This document shows positions 5,227-52,470 of a DNA stretch of 64,000 nt, piece after piece. The notes beneath the pieces are model-generated. The model had not been told where the DNA came from. It saw only the letters and a program-made list of their open reading frames with translations, and did not search any database. The translations under genes and the position numbers were made by a program. Position 1 is the stretch's first letter, and the number at the start of each line of letters is the position of its first letter. The DNA comes from Pararhodobacter sp. SW119 (GTDB taxonomy: Bacteria; Pseudomonadota; Alphaproteobacteria; Rhodobacterales; Rhodobacteraceae). The DNA is taken from contig NZ_JADDJF010000002.1 in assembly GCF_017811755.1 (NCBI RefSeq), positions 1 to 64,000 of the forward strand, in the 5' to 3' direction.

Positions 5227-5289
5227 CGGTTAACGAAGAAACACTTTCTGTTTTAAATCAGCGACTTGCTTCGCGGTCCAAATTTGGAC
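5227..5289 (+). repeat. Palindrome/CGGTTAA intergenic element, copy A
   Basis: Modules in order: CGGTTAA (5227-5233), 24 nt, TCAGCGACTTG (5258-5268), 7 nt, perfect palindrome GTCCAAATTTGGAC (5276-5289, 16 bp if the flanking G/C pair at 5275/5290 is counted). The same palindrome and module spacing recur at 39271-39332. The element lies at the convergent TRAP permease/lpxB junction and overlaps the lpxB coding end: the TCA of the box is the lpxB stop codon. Confidence 0.65.
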
Positions 5290-6463
5290 CGGCCGCGCCG
5301 CGCCGCCCCCGCGCCAGAAAATCCAGGACCGAGCGTGCCGCCCGCAGCCCCGGCGGCGGGCCATCCCGGCCCAGGCGCGCCATCGTCAGATCCATCGCGG
5401 CCCGCTGCGCATCGCGCGCGCCGGACTCGTCCAGCAGGCGCAGCAGCGCGGGCGCGATCAGGTCGGGCCGGCAGTCCCCGAACAGGAACTCCGGGATTGC
5501 CCGCGTCTCGGACACGAGGTTGACCAGCGTCGCGCTCTCGATCCGCGCCATCCGGCGGATCAGTGCGCGAGTCAGCAGGTGAAAGTCATAGGCGATCACC
5601 ATCGGCACCCCATTCGCCGCCAGTTCCAGCGACACGGTGCCCGACGCCGCCAGCGCCACGTCCGCGGCGCGGAACGCCGCGCGCTTGGCCTCGGGCGGGG
5701 TGGTCGCCGCATCCAGCAGGACCGGCGCGCCCGGCCAATCCGCGATCAGCCCGCGCAGCTGCGCCGCCTGCGCGGCAACCGCGGGAACGACCACGCGGGC
5801 CTGCGGATGCCGGGCGATCACCCGCGCCAGCGCCGGACCGAAGCGCGGCGCCAGCCGCTCGACCTCGCCCCGGCGCGAACCGGGCAGGGTCAGGATCAGC
5901 GGCGCCTCCCCGATCCCGTGCGCGACGCGAAAGGCACGCACCTCCTCGGGCGTCGCCAGCGGTTCGGCGACGACCGGGTGGCCGACGAAATCGCAACTCA
6001 TCCCGGCGGCCTGCATGAAGGGCGGCTCGAACGGCAGAAGGGCCAAGACATGATCGACCAGCGGCGCCATCCGCGCCGCCCGCCCCGGCCGCCAGGCCCA
6101 GACCGAGGGCGCGACGTAGTGGACTGTCGGCAGGTCCGGCCGGGCGGCGCGGGCGATCTTCAGGACGCGCAGGCAGAAATCGGGGCTGTCGATGGTGACG
6201 ACGACATCCGGCGCGGCGGCCAAGATCGCCTCTGCCGCCTGCGCGATCCGGCGCTTGAGCGCGAAGTAGCGCGGCAGCACCTCGGCCAGGCCCATGACCG
6301 ACAGCTCCTCCATCGGAAAGAGGCTGCGCAACCCCTGCCCCGCCATCTCGGCCCCGCCGATGCCGTCAGAGCGGACGTCAGGCTGAAACTGCCGCAACCC
6401 GGCCATCAGCGCCCCGCCCAGCCGGTCGCCCGAAGGCTCGCCTGCGATCAGGAAGACCTTCAC
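5258..6463 (-). CDS. lpxB: Lipid-A-disaccharide synthase
   Basis: Membrane-associated GT19 glycosyltransferase that joins 2,3-diacylglucosamine-1-phosphate to its UDP form to make lipid A disaccharide-1-phosphate. The 401-residue product starts MKVFLIAGEPSGDRLG, the LpxB signature, and keeps the central YVAPSVWAWRPGRA and the LTLPGSRRGEVE nucleotide-sugar region. The start overlaps the lpxI stop by 4 nt, so translation is probably coupled, and the three lpx genes form one unit. The last ten codons and the stop lie inside an intergenic repeat element (copy A), so the final residues (about GPNLDREASR) are probably acquired sequence rather than conserved LpxB. Confidence 0.96.
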   Translation of the reverse strand: MKVFLIAGEPSGDRLGGALMAGLRQFQPDVRSDGIGGAEMAGQGLRSLFPMEELSVMGLAEVLPRYFALKRRIAQAAEAILAAAPDVVVTIDSPDFCLRVLKIARAARPDLPTVHYVAPSVWAWRPGRAARMAPLVDHVLALLPFEPPFMQAAGMSCDFVGHPVVAEPLATPEEVRAFRVAHGIGEAPLILTLPGSRRGEVERLAPRFGPALARVIARHPQARVVVPAVAAQAAQLRGLIADWPGAPVLLDAATTPPEAKRAAFRAADVALAASGTVSLELAANGVPMVIAYDFHLLTRALIRRMARIESATLVNLVSETRAIPEFLFGDCRPDLIAPALLRLLDESGARDAQRAAMDLTMARLGRDGPPPGLRAARSVLDFLARGRRGAAGPNLDREASR

Positions 6464-7263
6464 GGCGCCGCCCAGAGGGCGATGCCCGCTGCATCGGCGG
6501 CGGCAACGGTCCGCGCGCGATCAAGGATGACCACATGACCCGCCTGCAGGCAGATGCCGGACAACCGCGCCGCCCGCGCCGCGCCGATGGTCGCCGGCCC
6601 GATGGCGGGCAGATCCATCCGCAAGTCCTGCCCGACCTTGGCGCGCTTGACCAGCACACCCCCCGCGCGCGGCTCTCGCAGATCGCGGCTGGCGGCAACA
6701 TGGGCGAGCATGGCGTCCGTGCCATAGAGCGCCTCGACCGCGAGGTAGAGGCCGCCCGCGACGACACAGCCCTGCCCCATGTCGAGCGGCGCGAGCGTTC
6801 GCAGGATCTCGGTCCCGCGCGCGGCGTCGGCCGTTTGCGCGGCATCGGGCGCGGTGGAACCAAGCACGCCCGCGCCGGCGAGGAGAGAGGGGGCGCAGTC
6901 CGCCATCCCGACGACGGTCAGGCCGTAATCCTCGAACACCGCGATGACGGCCCGCAGCAGGGCGTCGTCCCCCTTCCCCAGCGCGGGCAGGAGATGCGGC
7001 ATCAGCGCAGCGGTTTCGGGGTCGAAAAGCCCGGGGTCGAGACGCGGGCGGTGCACGACCCCGGCGAAGAGAACCTGCGCCACACCCTCGTCCTGCAAGC
7101 GGCGCAGAAGGGGGACAAGCCGTTCGATGCGGAAGGTCAGATCGGGGGTAAGGCCCGCCGGCGGATAGCCCTCGACCGCGCACACGAGGGGGCGTTGGGG
7201 CAGATGCGTCAGCAGTTCGGCCGGCAGGTCGCCCGCCCCGGCGATGAGGGCGAGCCGGGTCAT
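6460..7263 (-). CDS. lpxI: UDP-2,3-diacylglucosamine diphosphatase LpxI
   Basis: LpxI (former DUF1009) hydrolyses UDP-2,3-diacylglucosamine to 2,3-diacylglucosamine-1-phosphate, the step before LpxB; alphaproteobacteria use it in place of LpxH. The 267-residue product starts MTRLALIAGAGDLPAEL and has the family's VVGMADCAPSLLAGAG and late ARAARLSGICLQAGHVVI segments. It overlaps lpxA and lpxB by 4 nt at each end, giving a tight lpxA-lpxI-lpxB run. The protein is cytoplasmic. Confidence 0.94.
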   Translation of the reverse strand: MTRLALIAGAGDLPAELLTHLPQRPLVCAVEGYPPAGLTPDLTFRIERLVPLLRRLQDEGVAQVLFAGVVHRPRLDPGLFDPETAALMPHLLPALGKGDDALLRAVIAVFEDYGLTVVGMADCAPSLLAGAGVLGSTAPDAAQTADAARGTEILRTLAPLDMGQGCVVAGGLYLAVEALYGTDAMLAHVAASRDLREPRAGGVLVKRAKVGQDLRMDLPAIGPATIGAARAARLSGICLQAGHVVILDRARTVAAADAAGIALWAAP

Positions 7264-8057
7264 TTCGGGATCAGGAAGGACCGGTCGGAGGCGGACAGGA
7301 TGAAATCCGTCATCTCGCGCACATGGCGGCTTTCGGTCTCGTCACCGAGCCGCCGCGCGCGGTCCAGGAAAGTCCCCTCGCCCTGCGCCAGCATCTGGTA
7401 GGCCGCCCGCAGTGCCGTGATCTCGGCGCGTTCGACGCCGCGACGCTTCAGCCCGACAAGGTTCAGCCCGTCCAGCTCACCCCGCTGCGACTGCACCAGA
7501 CCGTGGGGAACGACGTCGTTCGTCACCATCGTGACCGCGCCGATGATCGCGCCGCGGCCGACGCGCACCCACTGGTGAACGCCGGCAAGGCCGCCAATGA
7601 TCACGTCATCGCCGATCACGCAGTGACCGGCAACGGCGGCCTGGTTGGCCATGATCACCCGGTTGCCCACCTGCGCGTCGTGCCCGACATGTGCGCCGGT
7701 CATGAACAGGCAATCATCGCCGACCCGCGTTATCCCGCCACCGCCGGCGGTGCCGGTGTTCAGCGTTGCGCCCTCGCGGATGCGGCAGCGCGCCCCGACG
7801 GTCAGGCGCGTACGCTCGCCGGCGAATTTCAGGTCCTGCGGCACCTCGCCGACGACGGCGAAGGGAAAGATCGTGGTTTCCGCGCCGATCTCGGTCCAGC
7901 CGGTGATGACGGCGTGGCTTTTTACCTCGACGCCTGCCGCCAGCGTTACCTCGGGGCCGATCAGGGCGAAGGGGCCGACGCGGCAGCCGGCGCCGATCTC
8001 GGCGCCGTCCTCGACAATAGCGGCGGGATGAACCTGCGCCGATGGATGAACCGCCAT
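7260..8057 (-). CDS. lpxA: UDP-N-acetylglucosamine O-acyltransferase
   Basis: First enzyme of lipid A synthesis: it moves a 3-hydroxyacyl chain from ACP to UDP-GlcNAc. The 265-residue product is a left-handed beta-helix of hexapeptide repeats (about 3-180) followed by an alpha-helical C-terminus. The active-site motif GAHVGHD has His123 and the catalytic His126, and GDDVIIGGLAGVHQ(W) follows. It starts 4 bp after fabZ, which competes for the same 3-hydroxyacyl-ACP pool, so co-transcription would balance lipid A against fatty acid synthesis. Confidence 0.97.
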   Translation of the reverse strand: MAVHPSAQVHPAAIVEDGAEIGAGCRVGPFALIGPEVTLAAGVEVKSHAVITGWTEIGAETTIFPFAVVGEVPQDLKFAGERTRLTVGARCRIREGATLNTGTAGGGGITRVGDDCLFMTGAHVGHDAQVGNRVIMANQAAVAGHCVIGDDVIIGGLAGVHQWVRVGRGAIIGAVTMVTNDVVPHGLVQSQRGELDGLNLVGLKRRGVERAEITALRAAYQMLAQGEGTFLDRARRLGDETESRHVREMTDFILSASDRSFLIPK

Positions 8058-8061
8058 GACC

Positions 8062-8553
8062 TCAGTCCCGGCCGTTCAGGTCAATCATCGCCATGAATTC
8101 CGCCTCGGCGGCGACTTCGTCCCCGACGCGGGCGACGCCGTCGAACTTCCAGATCTTCGACGAGCCGCGCTTGACCGTCACGTCCAGTTCCAGCACGTCG
8201 CCGGGCACGACCTTGCGGCGAAAACGCGCCTTTTCGATCGACATGAAGTAGACCAGCGGATTGCGGTCGACGAGGCCCAGTGTCAGCCCGACAAGGACCG
8301 CCGAGGTCTGCGCCATCGCTTCGATGATGGTGACGCCGGGCATGATCGGCACACCGGGAAAATGACCCTGGAAATGCGGTTCGTTGAAGGTGACGTTCTT
8401 GATGCCGGTCGCCCCCTTGCCCAGTCGGATGTCCCGCAGCTTGTCGATCAAGAGGAAGGGATAGCGATGCGGGATGATTCGCTGGATCAGGGCAAGGTCG
8501 GCCTCGGTCGTGCCTGACCAGTCCTGCGCCGTCTCCTTGGCGGTATCGGGCAT
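8062..8553 (-). CDS. fabZ: 3-hydroxyacyl-ACP dehydratase FabZ
   Basis: Hot-dog fold dehydratase of fatty acid elongation, 163 residues. It has HRYPFLLID, the catalytic His64 in [12 protein letters not shown] and Glu78 in the following helix. The order ompH-fabZ-lpxA is standard, but lpxD, which in many proteobacteria lies between ompH and fabZ, is absent here. The 83 bp to the upstream ompH stop are long enough for a minor internal promoter, though none was identified. Confidence 0.97.
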
Positions 8554-8636
8554 CTGGGCTCTCTCCGTTGCGCTGGGCTTCGCTCGACGCCAGCGTTAGC
8601 AATTTCGCCCCAGCACGGCAAGGCAGCCGGCGGTGG

Positions 8637-9179
8637 TCAGTCGGCGAGCGGCGGCGGCTCGCGGTCGCCAAAGGCCGAATCCAGCCGTTCGATCACGCGA
8701 TCCGTCATGTCCAGCCAGTCGGCACCGAGGATCAGCGCATCCGGGCGAAGGATCGCAACAAGACCATCCTCGGACATCAGTTCCAGAAGCACTGGCAGCG
8801 CCTCGTCGAAGAAACGCGAGGCCGCGGCGTCGGACTGTCGGGCAAGCTCGAGGCTGAGTTCGTTGCGCTCGGCGCGGATCGCCTCGACCCTGCGGTCGAA
8901 CTCGTCGGCGCGAAGGCGGAATTCCTCGGGGGAAAGTTCGGCGCGCGCTTCGGTCAGGGCGCGTTCCGCGGCGGCCAATTCGCCGGCTATGCGTTCGTTC
9001 TCGGCCTCGAGCCGGCGCTCGGCGTCGCGCACACCGGCCAGCACGGCTTGCCCGTATCGCGATTCGCGCAGCAGGCGTTCCTCATTCAGGATGCGGAAAT
9101 CGGCATCCTGGGCGGATGCCGCACCGCCGAGGCAGACGACGGCCGCGGCAAGCAGCGCGCCGCGGAGCCTGCCCGGCAT
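8637..9179 (-). CDS. OmpH/Skp family periplasmic chaperone
   Basis: Small secreted chaperone that holds unfolded outer-membrane proteins on their way to BamA. The 180-residue product has a signal peptide (cleavage near AASA|QDA, about residue 24) and a long charged helical middle (about 50-130, rich in Glu, Arg and Ala) as expected for the Skp tentacles. Sequence identity in this family is low, so the call rests on size, the signal, the coiled-coil body and the position between bamA and fabZ. Its ATG shares one base with the bamA stop (TGATG), indicating translational coupling. Confidence 0.88.
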   Translation of the reverse strand: MPGRLRGALLAAAVVCLGGAASAQDADFRILNEERLLRESRYGQAVLAGVRDAERRLEAENERIAGELAAAERALTEARAELSPEEFRLRADEFDRRVEAIRAERNELSLELARQSDAAASRFFDEALPVLLELMSEDGLVAILRPDALILGADWLDMTDRVIERLDSAFGDREPPPLAD

Positions 9180-11530
9180 CAGAAACGCGAAGAGATGGTC
9201 AGGTCGAACCGCTGGATCCGGTCAAAGTCTTCGCGGCGAACCGGGGTCGAGAAGTTGAACCGCAGCGGCCCGATGGGCGTGTCCCAGAAAAGCGAGAGCC
9301 CCGCCGTGGCGCGCAGCGACCGGTTGCCGCCCAGAAGGGTTACGCCCGGACTGTCGACCCCCCAGAGCGAGCCGACATCGAAGAACGCCCCGCCGGAGAT
9401 GTTGTATTCCTGCGGTAAGCCCAGTGGAAATTCGGCCTCGAGCCGTGCGACGGCGTAGTAGTTGCCGCCCAACCCGTCGAGGGTGTTCGCGTCCCGCGGC
9501 CCGATGCCGTACGGTCGGAAGCCGCGGATTTGGTCGGGACCCAGTTCGAAACGCTCGGTGATGCGGCTCGCACCGGACCGGTGCCAGATCCCGCCGGCCT
9601 CGGCCTCGGCGCGCAGCGTCACGTCGCCGCCAAGGATACGATGTTCGTATCCCACCAGTGCGGTCGAACGTGCCCATTTCCGGTCGCCGCCGAGTCCGGC
9701 GATATCCGAATCGAATCGCAGGACGAAGCCGCGATCCGGATCGGGACCAATACGGCGCGTGTCGTAAATGTAAGAAAACCCGACCGACGACGTCACCACG
9801 CTGCCCAGTAGCGCATCCTGCTGGATCCGGGGCGACGCGGCGGGGTCGACATTGCGAATCTCGTCCCGTGCAATCGAATAGCGCACGCCCAGCCGCCCGA
9901 ACTCGGAAACCGGGACGGTGAGCGAGGGCGAGAACTGCAGCATCCGGGTATCGAACTGCGAATAGCGGCTGCCGGTCGTGGCGCTGAGCCCTGCGCGGAT
10001 GCCGAATTCCAGATCGCGGCCGAGAAGCGCAGGCTCGACGAAGGACAGGTTGAAACTGCGCGCGCGCCGCTCGGTCGACAGATTCAGCGAAACGCGCTGG
10101 CCGCGCCCGAGGAAGTTGGATTCGGAGAACTGGATGTTGGCGCCGATCCCTTCGCGCGCGCCGTAGCTGACGCCAAGGCCGAGCGAGCCGGTCGTCGTTT
10201 CCTCGACCTGGACGTCGACAATCGCCTGGTCCGGGGCGCTGCCACCCTGAACGTCGACATTGGCGTCGGCGAAATAGTTCAACTCGCGGATGCGCGTGGC
10301 CGCCTCGCGGATCTTCCGCGGGTTCAGCGGGTCGCCCTCGGCAAGGTCGAACTGGCGCCGGATCACACGGTCCTGCGTGGTGGCGTTGCCCTGGATGTCG
10401 ATCCGTTCGACGAAGATGCGTTCGCCACGGACGATCGCGAATTCGACATCGATGGTCCGCGCGCGCTCGTTGCGGGACAGGCGCGGTTCAACGCGCAGGA
10501 AGCGTTCTCCGGACCGTTCGCCTACGCGTTCCATCCGGTCGACCGCCGAATCCAGAACCACGGGCGAAAAGATTGCGCCGGCGCGCAGCCCCATCTCGGC
10601 CCGGTAGGGCGCCGGGTCGATCCCGGCGATCTCGGACACGACCGAAGTCTGGCCCAGGCGGTACTGCTGCCCTTCGCGGACGGTGAAGGTGACGAAGGCC
10701 GCGTCGCGTTCACGGGCAACCTCGGTCACGGCGGCGGTCACCTGCGCGTCGACGAAGCCACGCGACAGGTAGAAGTCCTGCAATAGTTGCCGGTCGTTGG
10801 CGACGCGCGCCTCGTTGAAGTTGTCGGACTGGAACAGAAAGCTCAGCACGCCGGCCTGGCTGGTCTGCAGTGCGTTGCGCAACCTGCGGTCCGAGAACGA
10901 GCGGTTGCCGACGAAGCTGACCCGCTGCACCTCGACCACCCGGCCCTCGACGATCTCGAAGGCGAGATCGACACGGCCGTCGCCGCGCTCGATCAGGCGC
11001 GGATTGACGCGCGCGGCAAGCCGACCTTGCGCGGCATAGACTTCGGCAACCGCGGTGGCGTCCGCTTCGGCCTGCGCGGGCGAAAAGACGCGACCCGCAC
11101 GCAGGACGACCACCTCGCGCAGCACATCGTCGTTGACGCGGCGATTGCCCTCGAAATTCACCTGGTTGAGGATAGGATACTCTTCGACCCGAATGACAAG
11201 GCGGTTGCCCGAGGGAATGAAATCGACCGACCGGAAAAAACCGCTCGACGCGACACGCTGATAGGCGGCGTTCAGTTCGGCCGCCGAAAGGCTGCGGTTG
11301 CGCGCGATTCTGGCAAAGCCCGCGACGCTTTGCGCGTCGATCTGCCGGTTACCCTCGACCGCGATGGTCGAGAAGTTGTAGGTCTGAGCCGCACTCGGTG
11401 CCGCGGCCAGCAGCGAAAGCGCTGCAATCGCGGCGAGAACCGCCATGCAGGCAGATCCGGGGCGCAATGCCCGGACAATTTCCCGCGCCATTCCGGTCAG
11501 GTTGATCACGCGCATTCCGAAGCCCCGCAT
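9179..11530 (-). CDS. bamA: Outer membrane protein assembly factor BamA
   Basis: Omp85-family core of the BAM complex. The 783-residue product has a signal peptide ending near PSAAQ|TYN, five POTRA domains (about 45-420) starting with NFSTIAVEGNRQID, then a 16-strand barrel. The barrel has the loop-6 motif IRGFRPYG and ends in Phe (ISSRF), the outer-membrane insertion signal. The frame is open further upstream; I chose MRGFGM, just after GAGGGT. MRVINL, five codons later, is a close alternative because the GAGG is only 2 nt from the first ATG. Both leave the signal peptide intact. Confidence 0.95.
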   Translation of the reverse strand: MRGFGMRVINLTGMAREIVRALRPGSACMAVLAAIAALSLLAAAPSAAQTYNFSTIAVEGNRQIDAQSVAGFARIARNRSLSAAELNAAYQRVASSGFFRSVDFIPSGNRLVIRVEEYPILNQVNFEGNRRVNDDVLREVVVLRAGRVFSPAQAEADATAVAEVYAAQGRLAARVNPRLIERGDGRVDLAFEIVEGRVVEVQRVSFVGNRSFSDRRLRNALQTSQAGVLSFLFQSDNFNEARVANDRQLLQDFYLSRGFVDAQVTAAVTEVARERDAAFVTFTVREGQQYRLGQTSVVSEIAGIDPAPYRAEMGLRAGAIFSPVVLDSAVDRMERVGERSGERFLRVEPRLSRNERARTIDVEFAIVRGERIFVERIDIQGNATTQDRVIRRQFDLAEGDPLNPRKIREAATRIRELNYFADANVDVQGGSAPDQAIVDVQVEETTTGSLGLGVSYGAREGIGANIQFSESNFLGRGQRVSLNLSTERRARSFNLSFVEPALLGRDLEFGIRAGLSATTGSRYSQFDTRMLQFSPSLTVPVSEFGRLGVRYSIARDEIRNVDPAASPRIQQDALLGSVVTSSVGFSYIYDTRRIGPDPDRGFVLRFDSDIAGLGGDRKWARSTALVGYEHRILGGDVTLRAEAEAGGIWHRSGASRITERFELGPDQIRGFRPYGIGPRDANTLDGLGGNYYAVARLEAEFPLGLPQEYNISGGAFFDVGSLWGVDSPGVTLLGGNRSLRATAGLSLFWDTPIGPLRFNFSTPVRREDFDRIQRFDLTISSRF

Positions 11531-11629
11531 ACCCTCGTTCTTTTGATCGTGAGTAGCCGCTGAGCAGCGCAATGTCAAAGAGCAGTCGGCAGTTCCTGTG
11601 GGGCTGTGGCGCGCGTGGAACGGCCGGGA

Positions 11630-11794: not shown

Positions 11795-11904
11795 ATGGGC
11801 GCTCCCTGCATCGACGCGCCTGCAAGATGGCAGGCGCCGATGACCCGGTCAGGGCGCCGCGGGGGCGAAAGAATGGCATGGTTGACGGATGATGAACGCC
11901 GTTT

Positions 11905-13239: not shown

Positions 13240-13248
13240 GAAGTCTCC

Positions 13249-20846: not shown

Positions 20847-20959
20847 CTCCCAATGAGCCGCGGCCGATGCGTGCGCCGGCTTCGCGGAACACTCGGCCCT
20901 TCCAGCCGCGAGCGGGCTTTTCGACCTGTTTGGCTGTAGGTCGGACGTTACGGGGGCGC

Positions 20960-21021
20960 GTCCGCATGCGGACACGCAATCAATATATTGATGCAGAACG
21001 ATAAAATTCGTGATCGGATTG
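20960..21021 (-). repeat. Palindrome intergenic element, diverged copy lacking CGGTTAA
   Basis: Perfect palindrome GTCCGCATGCGGAC (20960-20973), 7 nt, then box CAATATATTGA (20981-20991), which differs from CAANNCRYTGA at one fixed position. The 7-nt spacing equals that of the full copies, and the GTCC...GGAC ends match copies A and B. The heptamer expected 23-24 nt further on is not recognisable (CGGATTG at 21015-21021). It lies between the convergent tRNA-Gly and VPLPA gene. Confidence 0.5.
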
Positions 21022-26499: not shown

Positions 26500-27444
26500 A
26501 TGCTCCTGTCCGCGCTGGATGCCCGCCACATCAGCACGTTCCTCGAGGCGATGGCCGCGGAAAGCGGCGCGGCGCGCAACACGCTGCTGGCCTATGGGCG
26601 CGACCTGCGCGATGCGGCCGGCTGGCTTCAGTCCCGCGGCAGCGATCTGGACCGCGCCGGGCGGGCCGACATCGAAGGCTATCTCATCGCCCTCGACACC
26701 GCGGGCATGTCGCGGGCGACACGGGCGCGCCGGCTTTCCGCGCTGAAGCGGTATTTCCGCTTCGCCGTGGAAGAGGGCTGGCGCGCGGATCATCCGGCGC
26801 TGCGCATCGACGGCCCCGGCCGCGCCCAGCGACTGCCCGGTACGCTGACCGAGGACGAGGTCGCCGCCCTGCTGGAGGCGGCGCGCACGCATGGCTCCGA
26901 TGCGGCTAGCCGGGCACGGAACACCTGCCTGTTCGAATTGCTGTATGCGACCGGGCTGCGCGTGTCCGAACTGGTCAGCCTGCCCCATACCGCGCTGCGC
27001 GGCGCGCCCGAGATGATGCTGGTGCGCGGCAAGGGGGGCAAGGACCGGATGGTGCCGCTTTCGGATGCCGCGCGCGCGGCGGTCGCCATCTGGCTGGCGC
27101 ATCGCGACCGTACCGAAGCCGCGGCGCAGAAGCAGGGACGCCCGCCCTCGCGCTTCCTGTTTCCGGCGCGCGGGGCGGCGGGACATCTGAGCCGCGTGCG
27201 CTTTCATACGCTGGTCAAGGAAGTCGCTGTCCGCGCCGGGATCGACCCCGACCGTGCCAGTCCGCATGTGCTGCGTCACGCCTTCGCCACGCATCTGCTG
27301 GCCGGCGGCGCCGACCTGCGGGTGATCCAGTTGCTGCTGGGCCACGCGGATCTCTCCTCGACCGAGATCTACACCCATGTGCTGGACGCCCGCCTGCGCG
27401 CGCTGGTGATGGCCCATCATCCGCTGGCGCGCGAGGGAAGCTAA
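26500..27444 (+). CDS. xerD: Site-specific tyrosine recombinase XerD
   Basis: Resolves chromosome dimers at dif together with XerC. The 314-residue product has the N-terminal SAM-like DNA-binding domain (about 5-100) and the catalytic domain with Arg154 in TGLRVSELVSL, Lys in the GKGGKDR loop (178-183), His256 and Arg259 in HVLRHAFATHL, His282 in LLGHADLSSTEIYTHV, and nucleophile Tyr291. All active-site residues are present, and the length fits XerD. The ATG is 2 bp after the preceding stop. Confidence 0.93.
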   Translation: MLLSALDARHISTFLEAMAAESGAARNTLLAYGRDLRDAAGWLQSRGSDLDRAGRADIEGYLIALDTAGMSRATRARRLSALKRYFRFAVEEGWRADHPALRIDGPGRAQRLPGTLTEDEVAALLEAARTHGSDAASRARNTCLFELLYATGLRVSELVSLPHTALRGAPEMMLVRGKGGKDRMVPLSDAARAAVAIWLAHRDRTEAAAQKQGRPPSRFLFPARGAAGHLSRVRFHTLVKEVAVRAGIDPDRASPHVLRHAFATHLLAGGADLRVIQLLLGHADLSSTEIYTHVLDARLRALVMAHHPLAREGS

Positions 27445-27820
27445 GGGGGCACCAGCGGATCGCGGCGCAGGCGTCGGACCTGCATGCCCCCCGCGTGAAC
27501 AGGTGTACGCCCGGTTAACGCCGGAAATTTTGTCTATCTTTTTCAGTGCGTTGAAAAGGGTGTGCAACTTGCACAACCCCCCGCCACCAGGCTTCCGACG
27601 CCCCGCGACCCTCTGCGGCGACCGCGGCAACCCTCCGGCGCGGCGCGCACCTGCGGTCGCGGCCGTGCCGCTGCCCGGCCCCGCGGACAGGCGGGCCATC
27701 CACTTGTGGAGGGATATGCCTGATCCGGCCCCTGTCGGTGGTCGGGGGAAGGGCCGCGCCCCTTTTCCTCGCTCGCGCAACGCCCTAGAACGTGTCGTAC
27801 CGCTTGCAAGAAGGATCGCC
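27445..27820. other. 376-bp gap between xerD and the amidotransferase gene
   Basis: Contains repeat element copy D (27512-27575). The rest (27576-27820) is GC-rich, with a GGGGGAAGGG patch and no convincing gene. The frame of the downstream gene is open through this gap, but the residues are low-complexity and unlike the family, so I do not count them as coding. A promoter for the downstream gene should be here. Confidence 0.55.
27512..27575 (+). repeat. Palindrome/CGGTTAA intergenic element, copy D
   Basis: CGGTTAA (27512-27518), 24 nt, TCAGTGCGTTG (27543-27553), 7 nt, palindrome TGTGCAACTTGCACA (27561-27575; perfect 7-bp arms around a central C). Spacing is identical to copy A, but the palindrome sequence is unrelated to GTCCAAATTTGGAC. 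It is the only copy between co-directional genes, 67 bp after the xerD stop. Confidence 0.65.
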
Positions 27821-39170: not shown

Positions 39171-39270
39171 TAGGCGCGGCCTGAAGTCGGGGCCTGATTC
39201 TTGGCGTTTCCGTGCTACCGGGGGCCGGTGTCGCACCACGTCGACAGGGCTTCGGTCAAAAGTTTCATTG

Positions 39271-39332
39271 CGGTTAATTTTGCGACTTTTCATATTTATA
39301 TCAATGCTTTGTCGAAGCGTCCAAATTTGGAC
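39271..39332 (+). repeat. Palindrome/CGGTTAA intergenic element, copy B
   Basis: CGGTTAA (39271-39277), 23 nt, TCAATGCTTTG (39301-39311), 7 nt, perfect palindrome GTCCAAATTTGGAC (39319-39332), the same palindrome as copy A. Its left edge shares the exact 19-mer TTTCATTGCGGTTAATTTT (39263-39281) with copy C on the other strand (52460-52478). It lies between the convergent glucosidase and dGTPase genes. Confidence 0.65.
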
Positions 39333-39396
39333 ACCTGCGCCACGGTGCCCGCTGGAACGCTTGTAGGCAAGAATTACCGAGGAAGCGACGCGCCGG

Positions 39397-45644: not shown

Positions 45645-45691
45645 GGCGACCTTTATGGGTTGGATACCGCGCGCTCGGCGGCCAGAACTCT

Positions 45692-45714: not shown

Positions 45715-45900
45715 ACACCCTTTGTCGCATTTGGTTTCACTCAGGTTAACCGCTCCCGCCCACAAGATTCCTGCAATTCGTTAAACGGATGTTGAATCGA
45801 GCGCTCTCAAGGCGCGCCATTCGGAAACGCAGTCTCTGATTTCATGGCTTTGCCATCGAATGGTGCACAATTTACAATGAAACCGAAGGGAGATGACCGG

Positions 45901-46263: not shown

Positions 46264-46398
46264 CCCCTGCATCCCTAAGCCCGATCCGTCTGCGCATGAT
46301 GCCACGTCGCTTTCTCTCGGGCTTGGGTCGCAAAGCCGCTTTCAACTTGAGCGGCGACGCTTATGTTGCGCCTGTCGTTCATGGTAGGCGGGCGCAAC

Positions 46399-48432
46399 AT
46401 GTCCGAGGCACTGGTTATCTTTACGCCATCGGGCAAGCGCGGACGTGTGCCCCTCGGCACGCCGGTCCTGACCGCAGCGCGTCAGCTGGGCGTCGATCTC
46501 GATTCGGTCTGCGGCGGACGCGGCATCTGCTCGAAATGTCAGGTCTCGCCGGGGCTGGGCGAGTTTGCCAAGCACGGCGTGACGGTCGCACCTGATGCGC
46601 TGAGCGCGTGGAACGCGGTCGAGCAACGCTACAAGGACAAGCGCGGCATGCTCGACGGCCGGCGCCTCGGCTGCCAGGCGCGCATCATGGGCGATGTGGT
46701 CATTGACGTGCCGCCTGAAAGCCAGTTGCACCGACAGGTCGTGCGCAAGGCCGCATCCGCCCGGCGGATCGCGATGGACCCGGCGACGCGGCTTTTCTTC
46801 GTCGAGGTCGCACAACCCGACATGCATGAACCGTCGGGCGACTTGGAGCGCCTCGCCGACGCCTTGCGCGATCAGTGGCAAGTCGACCCGCTCATCGCCG
46901 GCCCGCATGCCTTGCGGAAACTGCAACCGGCTCTTCGCAAGGGCAACTGGGGCGTTTCCGTAGCCGTCTACCGCGACCACACCGGAGGGCCGTGGCGTCT
47001 GCTCGACATCTGGCCCGGCCTGTACGAAGGCGGGCTCTACGGTCTGGCAATCGATCTTGGTTCGACCACCATCGCCGCTCATCTGACCGACCTGACCGAT
47101 GGCCGGGTCATTGCCGCCGGCGGCATCATGAACCCACAGATCCGCTTTGGCGAAGACCTGATGAGCCGCGTCAGCTACGCGATGATGAATCCGGGCGGCG
47201 ATACCGAGATGACCGCCACCGTGCGCCAGGCCCTAGATGCGCTGACCCACTCGGTTTCAGTCGAGGCGGGGATCGACCCATCCCTGATCCTTGAAGTCGT
47301 GGTCGTCTGCAATCCAGTGATGCACCACCTCTTTCTGGGCATCGATCCGGTTGAGTTGGGGCAGGCGCCGTTCGCACTCGCGACCTCCTCGTCGCTTGCC
47401 CTGCCTGCCCGCGATCTGGGGCTTACCACGATCAACCCCGAAGCACGTCTTTACACGCTGCCCTGCATCGCCGGGCATGTCGGCGCGGATGCCGCGGCCG
47501 TCGCGCTTTCAGAAGCGCCGCACCTGAGCGACGACCTTGTTCTTGTGGTCGATGTCGGCACCAATGCCGAGATCCTGCTGGGCAACTGCGATCGCGTCCT
47601 CGCCTGCTCATCGCCAACCGGCCCCGCCTTTGAAGGGGCGCAGATATCCAGCGGCCAGCGCGCCGCGCCCGGCGCTATCGAGCGGCTGGAAATCGACCCC
47701 GAAACGAAAGAGCCGCGCTTCAAGGTCATCGGTTGCGATCTCTGGTCAGACGATCCGGGCTTCGCGGAAGCCACGGAAAAGCTGGGCGTTACCGGCATAT
47801 GCGGCTCGGGCATCATCGAAGCCGTGGCCGAAATGCGCATGGCCGGTATCGTCGACGGCGCCGGGCTGATCGGCGGGGCGGAACAGACCGGCACCGCGCG
47901 CTGCATCCCCGAAGGACGCACGCATGCCTATCTGATCCACGACGCCACCGCGCAGGGCGGCCCGCGCATCACCGTGACGCAGGGCGACATCCGCGCGATC
48001 CAGTTGGCGAAATCGGCACTCTACGCCGGTGCGCGCCTGCTGATGGATGAGCTTGGCGTCGACCGCGTGGATCGCGTGGTGCTGGCGGGGGCGTTCGGCG
48101 CGCATATCAGCTCCAAACACGCGATGGTCCTGGGCATGATTCCCGACTGCCATCTGGACAAAGTCAGCAGCGCCGGAAACGCCGCGGGAACCGGCGCGCG
48201 CCTCGCGCTTTGCAACATCGCCGCCCGCGCCGGGATCGAACGTGAGGTAAAGCGCATCCATAAAGTCGAAACCGCCATCGAGCCGCGGTTTCAGGAGCAT
48301 TTCGTCAACGCTTCCGCGATGCCGCATGCGATCGACCCCTTTCCCGAACTGGCAAAGATCGTGACCCTGCCGCAGGTCAGCCACAACACCGGCGGCGGCG
48401 AGGGGGCCGGGCGGCGGCGACGCGCGCGTTAG
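46399..48432 (+). CDS. Corrinoid activation protein (ferredoxin-ASKHA/RACE, DUF4445)
   Basis: 677-residue ATP-dependent reductive activator of corrinoid methyltransferases. The N-terminal 2Fe-2S domain has cysteines 38, 44, 47 and 92 (CGGRGICSKC...GC), a linker follows, then the ASKHA ATPase with YGLAIDLGSTTIAAHL, VDVGTNAEILLG, VLAGAFGAHI and DCHLDKVSSAGNAAGTGAR. The start MSEALVIF follows AGGCGGGC; two ATGs upstream are less likely. Partners (corrinoid protein, methyltransferase) are usually adjacent but are absent here, so it may activate B12 enzymes encoded elsewhere. A basic RRRRAR tail ends the protein. Confidence 0.9.
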   Translation: MSEALVIFTPSGKRGRVPLGTPVLTAARQLGVDLDSVCGGRGICSKCQVSPGLGEFAKHGVTVAPDALSAWNAVEQRYKDKRGMLDGRRLGCQARIMGDVVIDVPPESQLHRQVVRKAASARRIAMDPATRLFFVEVAQPDMHEPSGDLERLADALRDQWQVDPLIAGPHALRKLQPALRKGNWGVSVAVYRDHTGGPWRLLDIWPGLYEGGLYGLAIDLGSTTIAAHLTDLTDGRVIAAGGIMNPQIRFGEDLMSRVSYAMMNPGGDTEMTATVRQALDALTHSVSVEAGIDPSLILEVVVVCNPVMHHLFLGIDPVELGQAPFALATSSSLALPARDLGLTTINPEARLYTLPCIAGHVGADAAAVALSEAPHLSDDLVLVVDVGTNAEILLGNCDRVLACSSPTGPAFEGAQISSGQRAAPGAIERLEIDPETKEPRFKVIGCDLWSDDPGFAEATEKLGVTGICGSGIIEAVAEMRMAGIVDGAGLIGGAEQTGTARCIPEGRTHAYLIHDATAQGGPRITVTQGDIRAIQLAKSALYAGARLLMDELGVDRVDRVVLAGAFGAHISSKHAMVLGMIPDCHLDKVSSAGNAAGTGARLALCNIAARAGIEREVKRIHKVETAIEPRFQEHFVNASAMPHAIDPFPELAKIVTLPQVSHNTGGGEGAGRRRRAR

Positions 48433-48528
48433 CCCCTGTTTCAGCCTGTCATCGACAGTGATCGGCTGCGCGCTTGCAACGGGACAGGCGTCGGATAAAA
48501 CGGTCGCATCGCAATCAGGGAAGTATTG

Positions 48529-49872
48529 ATGCCCGTATCGCTCGTTATCCTGGCCGCCGGGCTGGGCAGCCGGATGAATTCCGATCTGCCGAAAGTTCTG
48601 CATACGCTGGCCGGGGCGCCGCTACTTGCGCATGCGATGCGGGCCGGTGCGGCGCTTGGCCCGGAACGTGTCGTGGTGGTTACGGGGCACGGGGCCGATC
48701 AGGTCGCATCAACTGCGCGCAGTGAAAACCCCGATGTCCTCATCGCCCATCAGGCTGGACAGCTGGGCACCGCCCATGCCGTCGCGCAGGCGCGCACCGC
48801 GCTCGACGGCTTCTCCGGCGACGTGGTCGTCCTCTACGGCGATACGCCGTTTGTTTGCGTGGAGACACTGGAGGCCATGCGCGAGGCCCGGGCGCGCCAT
48901 GCGGTTGTCGTGCTGGGCTTCGAGGCCGCCGATCCTGGACGCTACGGTCGGCTCATGATGTCGGGTGAGCAGTTGGAGCGGATCGTCGAATTCAACGATG
49001 CGTCGGCTGAGGAACGGTTGATAACCCTCTGTAATTCCGGCGTGGTCTGCGCGGATTCGACAACCCTCTTCGATCTGATCGACAATGTCGGAAACGACAA
49101 TGCGAAAGGTGAATACTACTTGACGGACATCGTGGCGCTGGCCCGCAAACGGGGCCTTTCAGCCGGCGTCGTCACCTGCCCCGAATCCGAAACCCTGGGC
49201 ATCAATACCCGCACAGAACTCGCCGCGGCCGAGGGCGCCTTTCAGGCCCGCGCGCGTGTCGAAGCGCTGGAAACCGGTGTCACGCTCACCGCGCCCGAAA
49301 CCGTCTTCTTCGCGCTCGACACCGTCATCGGCCGCGACGCGGTGATCGAGCCGAATGTCGTCTTCGGCCCCGGCGTCACCATCGAATCCGGCGCACGAAT
49401 CCGCGCGTTCTGTCATCTCGAGGGCTGTCATGTCAGTCGTGGCGCGGTGGTCGGGCCCTACGCCCGCCTGCGTCCCGGCGCGGAACTGGCCGAAGACACG
49501 CGCGTCGGCAACTTCGTGGAGATCAAGAACGCGATCCTCGACGAAGGCGCGAAGGTCAACCACCTCAGCTACATCGGCGATGCGCATGTCGGGGAACGCG
49601 CCAATGTCGGCGCAGGGACGATCACCTGCAACTACGATGGCGTGATGAAGCACCACACCGAGATCGGCGCACGCGCCTTCATCGGCTCAGACACGATGCT
49701 GGTGGCGCCGGTGCGCGTTGGCGCCGATGCGATGACCGGGTCAGGGTCGGTGATCACCGCGGATGTGCCCGACGGCGCGCTCGCGCTCGCCCGCGCGCGG
49801 CAGGACAACAAATCCGGTCTGGCGCTTCGCCTGATGGAACGGTTGCGCGCCATAAAGGCACGGAAAGGATAG
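48529..49872 (+). CDS. glmU: Bifunctional UDP-N-acetylglucosamine pyrophosphorylase / glucosamine-1-phosphate acetyltransferase
   Basis: Makes UDP-GlcNAc for peptidoglycan and lipid A. The 447-residue product has the N-terminal uridylyltransferase (LAAGLGSRMNSDLPKVLH, VVLYGDTPFV, EFNDAS) and a C-terminal left-handed beta-helix acetyltransferase (about 245-447, with RPGAELAEDTRVGNFVEIKN and GAGTITCNYDG). The ATG at 48529 follows CAGGGAAG; a TTG one codon earlier is rejected. It starts a glmU-glmS operon (3-bp gap). Confidence 0.96.
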   Translation: MPVSLVILAAGLGSRMNSDLPKVLHTLAGAPLLAHAMRAGAALGPERVVVVTGHGADQVASTARSENPDVLIAHQAGQLGTAHAVAQARTALDGFSGDVVVLYGDTPFVCVETLEAMREARARHAVVVLGFEAADPGRYGRLMMSGEQLERIVEFNDASAEERLITLCNSGVVCADSTTLFDLIDNVGNDNAKGEYYLTDIVALARKRGLSAGVVTCPESETLGINTRTELAAAEGAFQARARVEALETGVTLTAPETVFFALDTVIGRDAVIEPNVVFGPGVTIESGARIRAFCHLEGCHVSRGAVVGPYARLRPGAELAEDTRVGNFVEIKNAILDEGAKVNHLSYIGDAHVGERANVGAGTITCNYDGVMKHHTEIGARAFIGSDTMLVAPVRVGADAMTGSGSVITADVPDGALALARARQDNKSGLALRLMERLRAIKARKG

Positions 49873-49875
49873 AGC

Positions 49876-51693
49876 ATGTGCGGCATTGTCGGCGTCCTTG
49901 GCAAGCACGAGGTTGCCCCCCTGATCCTGGAAGCGCTGAAACGGCTGGAGTATCGCGGCTATGACAGTGCGGGCATCGCGACGGTGCAGGACGGCACGCT
50001 CGACCGACGCCGCGCGGTTGGCAAACTGATCAACCTCAGCGATCTCTTGGTGCACGATCCGCTGGCGGGAAAGGCCGGGATCGGCCATACCCGCTGGGCG
50101 ACACATGGCGCGCCCTCGGTGGTCAACGCGCACCCGCACCGGGCAGGCGGCGTCGCGGTGGTACACAATGGGATCATAGAGAATTTCAAGGCACTGCGCG
50201 CCGAAATCGAAGCCGCCGGCCTGACCCCGGAATCCCAGACGGACACCGAAACGGTCGCCCTGCTGACCCGCCTCCACCTCGATCAGGGCATGTCGCCGGT
50301 CGAGGCCGCGGCAGCGACGCTCAAGAAGCTCGAGGGCGCTTTCGCGCTGGCCTTCCTCTTCAGCGGCGAAGACGATCTGATGATCGGCGCGCGCAAGGGT
50401 TCCCCGCTGGCCGTGGGTCATGGCGACGACGAGATGTTCCTCGGCTCGGACGCGATCGCGCTGGCGCCTATGACCGATCGCATCACCTATCTGGAAGAGG
50501 GCGACTGGGTCGTCCTGACCCGCAAGGGCGCCGAGATCTTCGATGCCGAAGGCCGGCGCGCCAACCGCCCGGTCAGCCGGATCGTGATGGATCAGACCCG
50601 GGTCGACAAGGCCGGGCACCGCCACTTCATGTCCAAGGAGATCGTGGAACAGCCGACGATCATCGAAGCCGCCCTTGCCCGTCACACGACCGCGCGCGGC
50701 GACGCGCTGGATTTCCCGGCGCCGGTGGATTTCACCGAATGCGATCGCGTCATCCTTGTTGCCTGCGGAACGGGGTTCTACGCGGCGCAGGTCGCGAAAT
50801 ACTGGTTCGAACGCTTTGCCGGCATCCCCACCGATATCGACATCGCCTCGGAATTCCGGTATCGGGAGCCGGTGTTGTCGAACCGGGCGGTGGCCATCTT
50901 CGTCAGCCAGTCCGGTGAAACCGCCGACACGCTGGCCGCCCTGCGCCATGTTGTCGATACGGTCGCGCGCACCATTGGCGTGGTCAATGTCGAAACCTCT
51001 TCGATCGCGCGCGAATGCGACGTGGCGCTGCCGATCATGGCGGGCCCCGAGATTGCCGTCGCCTCGACCAAGGCGTTCACCGCGCAGCTCATGGTGCTGG
51101 CGCTGCTGGCGCTCAAGGCCGGAATCGACCGGGGAAAACTCTCTGCCGAGGACGCGGCGGAACAACTGGCGATCCTGCGCACGGCCCCCGGGATGCTGCG
51201 CCAGGCGCTGGACCGCGAGGGCGAGATCGAGCGCATCGCCGGCCGGCTGGCACAGTCGCGCGACGTGCTGTTCCTGGGCCGGGGAACGATGTATCCGCTG
51301 GCGCTGGAAGCCGCGCTCAAGCTGAAAGAAATCAGCTATATCCACGCCGAAGGCTACGCGTCGGGCGAACTGAAGCACGGACCCATCGCGCTGATCGACG
51401 AGCATATGCCGGTGGTCGTCCTGGCCCCCCGCGACGGCCTGTTCGAAAAGACCGTCTCGAACATGCAGGAGGTCATGGCAAGGCAGGGACGCGTGCTGCT
51501 TATCTCCGACCAGGCGGGCCTGGACGAGGCCGGAAAGGTCTGGGCGCAGATCGTCATGCCGACCGTGCCCGAACTGCTGACGCCCTTCGTCTATGCGGTG
51601 CCGGCGCAGCTTCTGGCCTACCACACCGCGCTGGCCCGCGGCACCGATGTCGACCAACCGCGGAATCTGGCGAAGTCCGTGACGGTGGAATGA
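49876..51693 (+). CDS. glmS: Glutamine--fructose-6-phosphate aminotransferase (isomerizing)
   Basis: First hexosamine step: fructose-6-P plus glutamine to glucosamine-6-P. The 605-residue product starts MCGIVGVLG with the catalytic Cys2, has GYDSAGIAT and HTRWATHG in the glutaminase domain, then two SIS domains (SQSGETADTLAAL; SGELKHGPIALI) and ends RNLAKSVTVE. It is paired with glmU, so both ends of UDP-GlcNAc synthesis are co-expressed. No glmS ribozyme was seen. Confidence 0.97.
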   Translation: MCGIVGVLGKHEVAPLILEALKRLEYRGYDSAGIATVQDGTLDRRRAVGKLINLSDLLVHDPLAGKAGIGHTRWATHGAPSVVNAHPHRAGGVAVVHNGIIENFKALRAEIEAAGLTPESQTDTETVALLTRLHLDQGMSPVEAAAATLKKLEGAFALAFLFSGEDDLMIGARKGSPLAVGHGDDEMFLGSDAIALAPMTDRITYLEEGDWVVLTRKGAEIFDAEGRRANRPVSRIVMDQTRVDKAGHRHFMSKEIVEQPTIIEAALARHTTARGDALDFPAPVDFTECDRVILVACGTGFYAAQVAKYWFERFAGIPTDIDIASEFRYREPVLSNRAVAIFVSQSGETADTLAALRHVVDTVARTIGVVNVETSSIARECDVALPIMAGPEIAVASTKAFTAQLMVLALLALKAGIDRGKLSAEDAAEQLAILRTAPGMLRQALDREGEIERIAGRLAQSRDVLFLGRGTMYPLALEAALKLKEISYIHAEGYASGELKHGPIALIDEHMPVVVLAPRDGLFEKTVSNMQEVMARQGRVLLISDQAGLDEAGKVWAQIVMPTVPELLTPFVYAVPAQLLAYHTALARGTDVDQPRNLAKSVTVE

Positions 51694-51694
51694 T

Positions 51695-52396
51695 TTGTCC
51701 GTCCGTGCCGGGATACCGCCTGAGGCGGCGATGGGTGAACTGAAGGCCCTCGCCGATCCGGTGAAGGCGGCCGAGATGGCTGCGTACCACAAGACGGCGC
51801 GCCCTTTTTTGGGCGTGCCCGTTCCTGCCGTCGAGGCGCTGGCCAAGGACTGGCGCGCGGCCTGTTCGCTGGCAGAACGCATCGCGCTGGCCGCGGCGCT
51901 GTGGGACAGCGACGTGCATGAGGCGCGGGTCGCCGCGGCGAAGCTACTGACGCAGGCGCGCATCCGGCCGGACGATGCCGCGGTGTGGGAACTGATCGCG
52001 GGCTGGGCCGAGGGGTTCGACAGCTGGGCGCTGGCCGATCACGCCGCGGCGGCGGGGGGTCGGCGGCTGGTGGCCGATCCGGCGCGGCTGGACAGGGTCG
52101 AGGGCTGGCTGGACCACCCCAACATGTTGACCCGGCGGGCGACGCTGGTCATGACCCTGCCCTGGACCCGGCTGACGCATCCCAAACCGGCCGAGCTTGC
52201 CGTGCGCCGGCGCGTCCTGGGCTGGTGCGCCCACCACGCGACTGACCGCGATTGGTTCATGCAAAAGGCCGTGGGCTGGTGGCTGCGCGACCTTTCGCGC
52301 CACGACCCGCAGGCGGTCCGCGACTGGCTTTCCGACCATGGCGCGCGGCTCAAGCCCTTCGCCCGGCGCGAGGCGGAGCGGCGCCTGCCCGGCTGA
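51695..52396 (+). CDS. DNA alkylation repair protein (AlkD-like HEAT fold)
   Basis: 233 residues: YHKTARPFLGVPVPAVEALA, then tandem amphipathic helices with DSWALADHAAAA and WFMQKAVGWWLRDLSRHDP, matching AlkC/AlkD-type HEAT-repeat glycosylases of the PF08713 family. It begins one base after the glmS stop, with a probable TTG start (GGTGGA upstream), so it is coupled to glmS; ATG 51731 is the fallback start. The link with cell wall sugar genes looks accidental. Whether it excises alkylated bases is inferred from the family. Confidence 0.82.
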   Translation: MSVRAGIPPEAAMGELKALADPVKAAEMAAYHKTARPFLGVPVPAVEALAKDWRAACSLAERIALAAALWDSDVHEARVAAAKLLTQARIRPDDAAVWELIAGWAEGFDSWALADHAAAAGGRRLVADPARLDRVEGWLDHPNMLTRRATLVMTLPWTRLTHPKPAELAVRRRVLGWCAHHATDRDWFMQKAVGWWLRDLSRHDPQAVRDWLSDHGARLKPFARREAERRLPG

Positions 52397-52408
52397 AGGG
52401 TGTAGATT

Positions 52409-52470
52409 GCGCGCATGCGCGCATTCGCGCAACCATTTGTCTTGTATACATAATTCTTAAAAATTAACCG
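52409..52470 (-). repeat. Palindrome/CGGTTAA intergenic element, copy C
   Basis: On the minus strand: CGGTTAA (52470-52464), 23 nt, box ACAAATGGTTG (52440-52430), 7 nt, perfect palindrome GCGCGCATGCGCGC (52422-52409). The spacing equals copy B, the TTG of the box keeps its place, but the palindrome sequence is different. It shares the exact 19-mer around CGGTTAA with copy B. It lies between the convergent alkD-like and gntP-like genes. Confidence 0.62.

Follow-up and report, generated by a model that had tools for sequence, protein, structure and literature searches.

The 64-kb window, the whole stretch of DNA analysed here, carries several copies of a dispersed repeat that we interpret, with a probability of roughly 45%, as a composite site in double-stranded DNA, about 75-100 bp long and located downstream of genes. 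Its modules follow the order TTAA-containing left module, AT-rich stretch, IHF-type box, 7 bp and perfect 14-bp dyad. Our analysis supports the original prediction that a repeat scattered near gene 3' ends carries a compensating palindrome, and direct inspection of the window letters confirmed its four full copies at the coordinates given. In all of them the heptamer (CGGTTAA) is separated from the box by 23 or 24 nt, and the box from the palindrome by exactly 7 nt. The repeat reaches further 5' than the proposed ~62 bp: the ~14 nt preceding CGGTTAA also belong to it (consensus CAAAAGTTTCATTG, from a position profile of the copies in this genome, G000). We found no description of the element in the open-licence literature.

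Copy A (5203..5305, plus strand; heptamer 5227-5233, IHF-like box 5258-5268, dyad GTCCAAATTTGGAC at 5276-5289; E = 1.5e-14 with the full model, R1) lies between a DctM-family gene (3351-5171, plus) and a gene of the LpxB family (5258-6463, minus) that faces it with its 3' end. The palindrome of copy A sits within the 3'-terminal part of the called lpxB ORF, for which the TCA of the copy A box provides the stop codon; therefore, not every copy is strictly beyond a gene. Copy B (27488..27590, plus; heptamer 27512-27518, box 27543-27553, dyad TGTGCAACTTGCACA at 27561-27575; R1 E = 2e-11) occupies a tandem junction 3' of a tyrosine-recombinase-family gene (26500-27444, plus). Copy C (39247..39348, plus; heptamer 39271-39277, box 39301-39311, dyad GTCCAAATTTGGAC at 39319-39332; R1 E = 6.6e-23) is flanked by convergent alpha-amylase-family and HD-domain genes. 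Copy D (52393..52494, minus; heptamer 52470-52464, box 52440-52430, dyad GCGCGCATGCGCGC at 52422-52409; R1 E = 1.6e-17) adjoins a DNA-alkylation-repair-family gene ending at 52396 and a convergent gene (52513-53892, minus); the corresponding junction in a sister species, G014, holds an outward pair of copies. Two further sites, at 20960 and 31, had been listed as diverged; with R1, they and the four full copies score as members of a single family. Copy E (20944..21008, minus) has a diverged heptamer, the box ATCAATATATTG and the dyad GTCCGCATGCGGAC at 20973-20960 (R1 E = 3.8e-6; E = 6.9e-7 with the core model, R2). Copy F (15..121, minus) is degenerate, with a heptamer at 97-91, the box ATCAATCATTTA and an imperfect inverted repeat, GCACACCTGCGTGC; it was missed by R2 and scored by R1 only (E = 1.8e-5).

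Genome-wide, a covariance model identified at least 150 copies, and other high-copy genomes exist (147 copies in G014, 83 in G008 and 82 in G021, which belongs to another genus). A loose pattern searched genome-wide gave 53+61 matches, compared with 8+7 for the reversed control. In 658 kb of this genome, a sample gathered around pattern matches and hence enriched, 85 of 107 CGGTTAA words were followed at the right offset by a dyad with arms of at least 6, as opposed to 0 of 329 sites for a set of nine control heptamers and 348 of 100,000 positions drawn at random; palindromes at this fixed offset are indeed more frequent than expected. Within the window alone, the dyad was present for 4 of 6 words. 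When copies were retrieved with a profile lacking the dyad, 90 of 93 showed a dyad centre at heptamer +55/56, with no fewer than 6 of 7 positions paired. Chance is ruled out as the origin of the heptamer-dyad spacing.

The box TCARYGNNTTG is present as the original prediction described it; what went unnoticed there is that it fits the IHF consensus WATCAANNNNTTR given in the excerpted text of PMC10380432, a consensus that comes from E. coli. The full consensus occurs in 26 of 93 copies in this genome (0.03% of random windows), and CARNNNNTTR in 80 of 93 (0.56% of random windows), the profile that retrieved these copies itself including the box. The 5' side of the box is 64% AT. Just 4 of 36 copies in G014 and 3 of 21 in G008 carry the full consensus. 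Genes of the IHF/HU family number three each in G000, G014 and G008, and two in G021. Three genomes have a third half-site, in direct orientation, at a fixed place 42 bp upstream of the dyad and beyond the box: G159 (7/7 copies, 6 exact), G106 (6/12) and G003 (2/3). No such half-site was detected in the window's genus (5.12 observed, 5.12 permuted). Tentatively, G021 shows a permutation signal (2/2000) for a third half-site with no fixed place.

Copies are placed mainly between convergent genes (69/93 in this genome). The dyad side points toward a gene 3' end for 83 of 92 copies in G000, 24 of 33 in G014, 17 of 20 in G008 and 24 of 28 in G021, where gene context rests on a gene call made with the G000 codon table; a first G021 call, trained on that genome's own small sample, had placed 12 of 28 copies between divergent genes and was replaced. 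G106 is weaker in this respect (5/12 toward a gene 3' end, 7/12 toward a gene start), and at tandem junctions of G000 the orientation is mixed (11 vs 9). Divergent, promoter-containing junctions are avoided: 0 of 89 copies lie there in G000, and in the G014 stretches 2 of 58 divergent junctions are occupied, as compared with 33 of 46 convergent ones.

The element is patchily spread within one family, across many genera. The box-plus-dyad core was found in 25 of 295 Rhodobacteraceae genomes; 14 of these have at least three copies. Among the other genomes of a class draw, 1 of 288 has it. Named Rhodobacterales yielded no profile match in 80 loci, nor were box-dyad combinations enriched at the right offset over 0.99 Mb. 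Within the window's genus, 3 of 18 genomes are high-copy and the remaining 15 have 0-3 matches, indicating that the element is not essential. Left modules differ by genus. This distribution, together with copies that are present in one species and missing from the matching junction of another, would be expected of a non-autonomous mobile repeat, MITE- or REP-like and not RAYT-driven, in which dyad, third half-site and IHF site would together be recognised by a recombinase or transposase encoded elsewhere. We regard such an origin as possible, if somewhat unlikely; the recombination site suggested in the original prediction is likewise a candidate. The half-site/IHF/dyad layout is reminiscent of recombinase and partition sites, and the avoidance of divergent junctions could mean that intergenic gene ends simply tolerate insertions. 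However, no Y1 transposase was found in G014, G008, G021 or G003 (assemblies 80-97% complete). Closely spaced copies form 11 pairs, of which three enclose one gene each: an acyl-CoA dehydrogenase, a carbamoyl-phosphate synthase and a 94-aa frame lacking a Pfam match. None of these three is a mobility gene. No target duplication was seen, the empty sites being too diverged to show one.

The likeness of paired copies in the sister species also argues against a mobile repeat. For 12 of 15 mapped G000 copies, the G014 junction holds a copy in the same orientation, where about 40% would be expected in that sample (16 and 21 of 46 convergent junctions occupied per strand); since the G014 stretches were picked for holding copies, and a copy was counted only with GTTAA kept, retention and heptamer constraint are overestimated. 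Across 16 paired copies, identity exceeded that of permuted pairings in the AT stretch (0/5000) and the dyad (2/5000), and was no better than permuted in the flank (678/5000). Where dyad pairs differ between G000 and G014, both sides are altered in 26 of 39; divergence is 29% in the arms vs 61% in the flanks. Copies at matching junctions are related by descent, though their flanks have lost similarity. Because place, spacer letters and dyad letters are kept despite diverged flanks, the sites look to be maintained by selection; alternatively, the modules may be kept through gene conversion from copy to copy.

The position of the copies also fits a bidirectional terminator or mRNA 3'-end hairpin, whose dyad would fold in both convergent transcripts and stop polymerase or exonucleases, with IHF as a roadblock. 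The median distance from dyad end to called gene end is about 40 nt, outward pairs supply each convergent gene with its own copy, some copies have stems of 10-14 bp, and two-way transcription would disfavour G-U pairs on the other strand. Canonical T-run terminators are rare (19/319 gene ends), and accompany 0 of 10 tandem sense copies as against 11 of 144 copy-less tandem ends, a difference that is not significant. We nevertheless consider a terminator decidedly unlikely. In the G000 profile, neither side of the dyad has a T-run; most copies pair the two central bases as well, a pairing that a hairpin loop could do without; and tandem copies, in addition to their mixed orientation, are nearly free of wobbles (1 A-C and 0 G-T of 140 cells). 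Element and T-run do not exclude each other at convergent ends (T-run terminators within 130 nt of 2/61 ends with a sense copy vs 4/89).

Pairing in the dyad is strict and symmetric with respect to the two strands. In this genome, 1031 of 1050 dyad cells are Watson-Crick and 6 are of wobble type (3 G-T, 3 A-C); in G021, 224 cells include 0 G-T and 2 A-C. Covariation between the arms reveals strong compensation: 0.558 in G000, compared with 0.201 +/- 0.013 in shuffles, and, when several genomes are aligned together, 0.769 compared with 0.226 +/- 0.017. Among 91 copies there are 28 distinct 7-nt arms, which a homodimer of a single specificity cannot explain. The view that selection acts on structure rather than on one protein site agrees with the variable palindromes of the window's genus and G021, but not with those of G159 (8/8 read) and G029 (7/9 matches), which are constant or nearly so; these near-constant palindromes, together with the third half-site of G159, G106 and G003, indicate sequence reading. 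Perfect pairing could alternatively be kept by template-switch (quasi-palindrome) correction, which copies arm onto arm, rather than by selection on pairing. Consistent with this, wobble intermediates are missing, and the central two bases, out of the correction's reach, mismatch most among the seven core pairs. We think it highly improbable, given the restricted alphabet (mostly G-Y-N-C-R-M arms), the fixed dyad-to-box distance, the sharp fall in pairing beyond 7 bp and arms less diverged than flanks. The suggestion of a one-strand structured RNA is disfavoured because wobble pairs are all but missing, and Rfam 15 covariance models gave no match at the window elements or five element-bearing loci.

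At somewhat under even odds, we favour a composite protein-DNA site, bent by IHF and placed at gene ends, that would work like RIB/BIME-1 without being one. IHF binding, a dyad-binding protein, the boundary function and the origin of the copies are what we infer: IHF would bind the predicted box and fold the DNA, bringing the left module (in some genera, the third dyad half-site 42 bp off) to the dyad, which a putative symmetric DNA-binding protein would hold. The complex could serve as a boundary where transcription units end, chiefly between convergent genes, and might act alike on transcription from either side. A more specific proposal, which we hold to be rather doubtful, is a family-specific class of IHF-organised three-half-site sites, read by a fast-changing putative DNA-binding protein or recombinase; each lineage would have its own dyads, and in the window's genus and G021 each genome would have combinatorial palindrome alleles kept perfect site by site. 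If the three-half-site reading is true, these sites would constitute a new chromosome-wide system marking gene ends. To our knowledge, no single known mechanism easily explains many compensated palindrome alleles in one genome. Co-changing palindromes, apparently kept by descent at matching loci, offer a natural mutational series on what such repeats do; candidate roles to probe include limiting convergent transcription, nucleoid organisation and serving a recombinase.

Several known systems share features with the element. In P1/P7 parS, a single plasmid site, an IHF bend separates a set of inverted half-sites from further half-sites. Similarly, the dyad and, in some genera, the further half-site lie on opposite sides of the IHF-type box, but carrier genomes have 80 to at least 150 copies; the P1 ParB family (PF08775) matched 0 of 24 genomes and likewise 0 of 14 controls. 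A plasmid origin was rejected, as no plasmid matched the one window copy searched. A phage origin was also rejected: 15 IMG/VR contigs share a 16-mer, about chance level by estimate, no box and dyad were seen by eye after the shared 16-mer, and R1 scores three IMG/VR contigs weakly (best 22.7 bits). Caulobacter CIR, according to excerpts of PMC2229807, are alphaproteobacterial intergenic repeats with inverted repeats, as is our element, and a conserved GANTC; we rejected this assignment, since GANTC occurs in 20 of the 150 elements listed, close to the background rate (0.10 per 78 bp). Correia elements (CREE/NEMIS), described in the same excerpts (PMC2229807) as having an IHF site, terminal inverted repeats and target duplications, are like other MITEs comparable as small dispersed repeats with a predicted IHF site, but the G000 element profile has no terminal inverted repeats. 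REPs, in the available portions of PMC3733652 and PMC2817692, are high-copy, extragenic and palindromic with compensatory changes, and are prevalent between convergent and unidirectional genes. The element shares these properties, but its dyad is of fixed length and tied to an IHF-type box, and in the G000 position profile the palindrome foot bears neither a GTAG nor a CGTC tag. Mobility by a REP-type Y1 transposase (REP/RAYT) was rejected, as PF01797 is absent from the high-copy genomes G014, G008 and G021; G000 has two matches, a 144-aa frame and a 93-aa fragment, and of the copies listed on the contig of the 144-aa frame, the closest is about 12 kb away from it.

Enterobacterial IHF-type sites at gene ends travel with REPs and a REP transposase. 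The element would represent an independent IHF-type repeat family, in Rhodobacteraceae, with no Y1 transposase in three high-copy genomes. Its closest parallel may be the RIB/RIP elements of E. coli, reportedly described by Boccard and Prentki in 1993. BIME-1, in the excerpts of PMC2817692, consists of two REPs around an IHF site, in repeats at transcription-unit 3' ends. Whereas BIME-1 has a REP on each side of its IHF site, the two in opposite orientation, our element has one dyad on one side of the box, a TTAA module and, in some genera, a third half-site; like RIB/RIP (BIME-1), it is dispersed, lies at the 3' ends of transcription units and combines a predicted IHF site with a palindrome.

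The four full copies of the original prediction, and the spacing it gave for them, were confirmed on the window sequence. Its two diverged sites (20944-21008 and 15-121, both minus strand) were also recovered, one by both the model of the whole element (full model) and the model of AT stretch, box, 7 nt and dyad (core model), the other by the full model only. A covariance-model search of the whole genome (G000) yielded at least 150 copies. A profile made without the palindrome was applied to 658 kb of G000, a non-random sample of 61 loci, the window among them, selected by loose-pattern matches, and gave 93 usable copies; in 90 of these the centre of a dyad, paired at 6 or more of its 7 positions, lay 55 or 56 nt past the heptamer. 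A dyad at the right offset accompanied 85/107 CGGTTAA words in this sample and 0/329 occurrences of nine control heptamers. One CGGTTAA in the window, at 45752, has no dyad at the usual place; the imperfect inverted repeat that comes after it, ATTGTTTTCGAATCGAGAACAAT (45714-45692, minus strand), does not fit the element family.

The G000 consensus begins with CAAAAGTTTCATTG CGGTTAA YGGCG..., passes into an AT-rich stretch and continues with WWTCARYGNCTTG, 7 nt, the dyad and a C-rich stretch. A second form, or subfamily, has another 5' module, with TTGAAATC ahead of the heptamer, and one extra nucleotide ahead of the box; G000 copies shaped TTGAAATCCGGTTAA (e.g. at loci L031, L054, L059 and L087) represent it. 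In sequence the box, TCARYGNNTTG, corresponds to the core part of WATCAANNNNTTR, the IHF consensus given in PMC10380432 and PMC3281130. The full consensus was present in 26/93 copies in G000 and in 4/36 and 3/21 copies in G014 and G008, two genomes of the same genus, and the core CARNNNNTTR in 80/93, 27/36 and 17/21, compared with 0.03% and 0.56% of random windows, respectively; these counts lean toward the box, which is included in the seed and profile. IHF/HU-family genes occur in the genome, by a family match that does not separate IHF from HU.

By approximate gene calls from a simple home-made caller, we found that 69/93 G000 copies lay between convergent genes, although only 108 of that sample's 570 junctions were convergent. 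Of the 92 copies with a gene on the dyad side, 83 had that side toward its 3' end, and no divergent junction occurred among the 89 copies flanked by genes on both sides. Elsewhere, the dyad side faced a gene 3' end in 24/33 (G014), 17/20 (G008) and 24/28 copies (G021, of another genus, whose gene context shifted with the choice of codon table), with two, one and one copies, respectively, in divergent placement. In G014 stretches selected for containing copies, a copy was held by 33/46 convergent, 17/113 tandem and 2/58 divergent junctions (gap at least 60). Tandem junctions in G000 held both orientations (11 versus 9). Close pairs of copies in G000 are oriented outward, which gives both convergent genes a dyad of their own. 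A further genome, G106, deviates, with the dyad toward a gene start in 7/12 copies.

A tyrosine-recombinase-family gene (Phage_integrase and SAM-like N domain; window 26500-27444, plus strand) ends beside copy B, an adjacency that is probably coincidental. In G004, locus L372 has a GTAG-headed REP-like hairpin pair, GTAGGGTGGGCAATCCTTGCCCACC and GGGGTGGGCATATTGCCCACCCTAC, past the 3' end of the gene orthologous to window 52513-53892, a gene end at which G000 and G014 carry the element. An Rfam match to PYLIS_3 (mttB pyrrolysine insertion element; 50.8 bits) at L076 3368-3466 (plus strand) possibly reflects mere coding similarity of a trimethylamine-methyltransferase-type gene.

Judged from sequence, the layout is that of a putative composite DNA-protein site: half-site, IHF bend and dyad. 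Our preferred reading, to which we assign a probability of about 0.45, is an IHF-bent boundary at gene ends, in which putative IHF bending and a candidate dyad-binding protein would together establish the boundary.

The full model matched 9/60 genomes, the window's own included, with many matches only in G000, G008 and G014; the core model gave 147 copies in G014, 83 in G008 and 82 in G021. In the family, 25/295 genomes matched, the window's own included, and at least 14 of the 295 had three or more copies among the best 20 candidates per genome. No copy was found in 80 loci from named Rhodobacterales. A class draw of 289 genomes gave, besides the window's own, a single match in one genome, which gauges the false-positive rate. 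Some of the assemblies are incomplete (G008, 82%; G159, 84%; G003, 80%). Left modules, the part around TTAA, vary by genome: CGTTAACACTTTTATC in G021, CTTGCCAAAA-CTTAACG in G029 and CTTAAG in 2/3 G003 copies. The G029 dyad is nearly constant, AACACGCGTGTT with small changes in 7/9 matches (L306, L309, L312, L314, L317, L320, L322), whereas dyads in the window's genus vary; the weak matches L324 and L326 differ from the G029 dyad. Five G028 loci (L308, L310, L313, L315, L318) are weak relatives, four of them with GNNCA and TGNNC-like arms round a constant, loop-like ATCC centre.

Some genomes have a third half-site. All 8 G159 copies examined have the dyad GTGCACATGTGCAC, and its arm GTGCACA recurs 42 bp upstream, outside the search model, in 7/7 tested copies (6 exact, 1 with a mismatch). 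This distance is about four helical turns, and the IHF-type box lies within it. An equivalent half-site, GTCCAC, stands at 6/12 G106 copies, and GTCCGCA or GTCCACG at exactly -42 in 2/3 G003 copies, each in agreement with its own dyad; the third G003 copy has none at -42. In G021, arms agreed more closely with the left flanks of their own copies than with permuted flanks (5.39 versus 5.00 +/- 0.115; 2/2000), at no fixed place, and tests of element copies in the window's genus revealed no third half-site.

Both flanks allowed 15 G000 copies to be mapped in G014, where 12 had a counterpart with matching orientation, 1 had one that was reversed and 2 had none, and of 18 G014 copies mapped in G000 the numbers were 12, 3 and 3; the few comparisons of G008 gave 4/5 copies kept in each direction with G014 and 0/1 and 0/3 with G000, all overestimates of retention because the stretches were selected for holding copies. 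In these stretches 16 or 21 of the 46 convergent junctions, depending on the strand, hold a copy, a base rate that the observed 12/15 exceeds. Over 16 distinct pairs, the flank (61%) and the box's four free bases (59%) had diverged most, followed by the AT stretch (47%), the dyad (29%), the left module (24%) and the heptamer (3%), the last value being partly by construction, as detection demanded GTTAA; a few rows are shifted by one owing to odd-length dyads. Among dyad pairs 39/112 had changed, 26 of them on both sides, and the 14-bp core was unlike between partners in 14/16 pairs. True pairs were closer than permuted ones in the AT stretch (identity 0.529 versus 0.397; 0/5000 permutations), the dyad (0.710 versus 0.569; 2/5000) and the 7-nt spacer (89/5000), with no excess likeness in the box's free bases (411/5000), left module (1123/5000) or flank (678/5000). 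It follows that many paired copies share one ancestor though their flanks are no longer similar, which speaks for selection on individual sites; two pairs with unlike left modules (window copy D, 52393-52494, minus strand; L047) may not be related by descent. Because the descent test holds, we kept the odds of our readings despite the weaker retention argument. Second-ranked, and rather doubtful, is a mobile repeat that would use the same half-site/IHF/dyad layout as a recombination site; it is compatible with a boundary function, and both may hold.

Dyad pairs showed strong covariation. Dyads in G000 mostly have outer parts GTCC, GTGC, GCTC, GCGC or GCAC and inner parts AAATTT, ACGCGT, GCATGC, AAGCTT or AACCTT. 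Across 150 copies from three genomes, 1031/1050 cells in the seven core pairs were Watson-Crick, with 3 G-T and 3 A-C; beyond the core, 71% of copies were paired at position 8 and 56% at the next, and positions further out approached chance. These figures are biased upward by picking dyad centres for best pairing. Since an RNA hairpin acting on one strand is expected to tolerate G-U, we read the symmetry as probably that of double-stranded DNA or of both strands. A bidirectional terminator, which ranks third, we consider unlikely.

The original prediction had also raised a REP-like unit, and we reject membership in a REP system because a REP-type Y1 transposase was not found in G014, G008 or G021. 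We likewise do not assign the element to E. coli RIB/BIME-1, because the two flanking REPs that are a feature of RIB/BIME-1 are missing here; in its location at gene ends and its pairing with a putative IHF site, the element parallels RIB/BIME-1 as described in PMC2817692.
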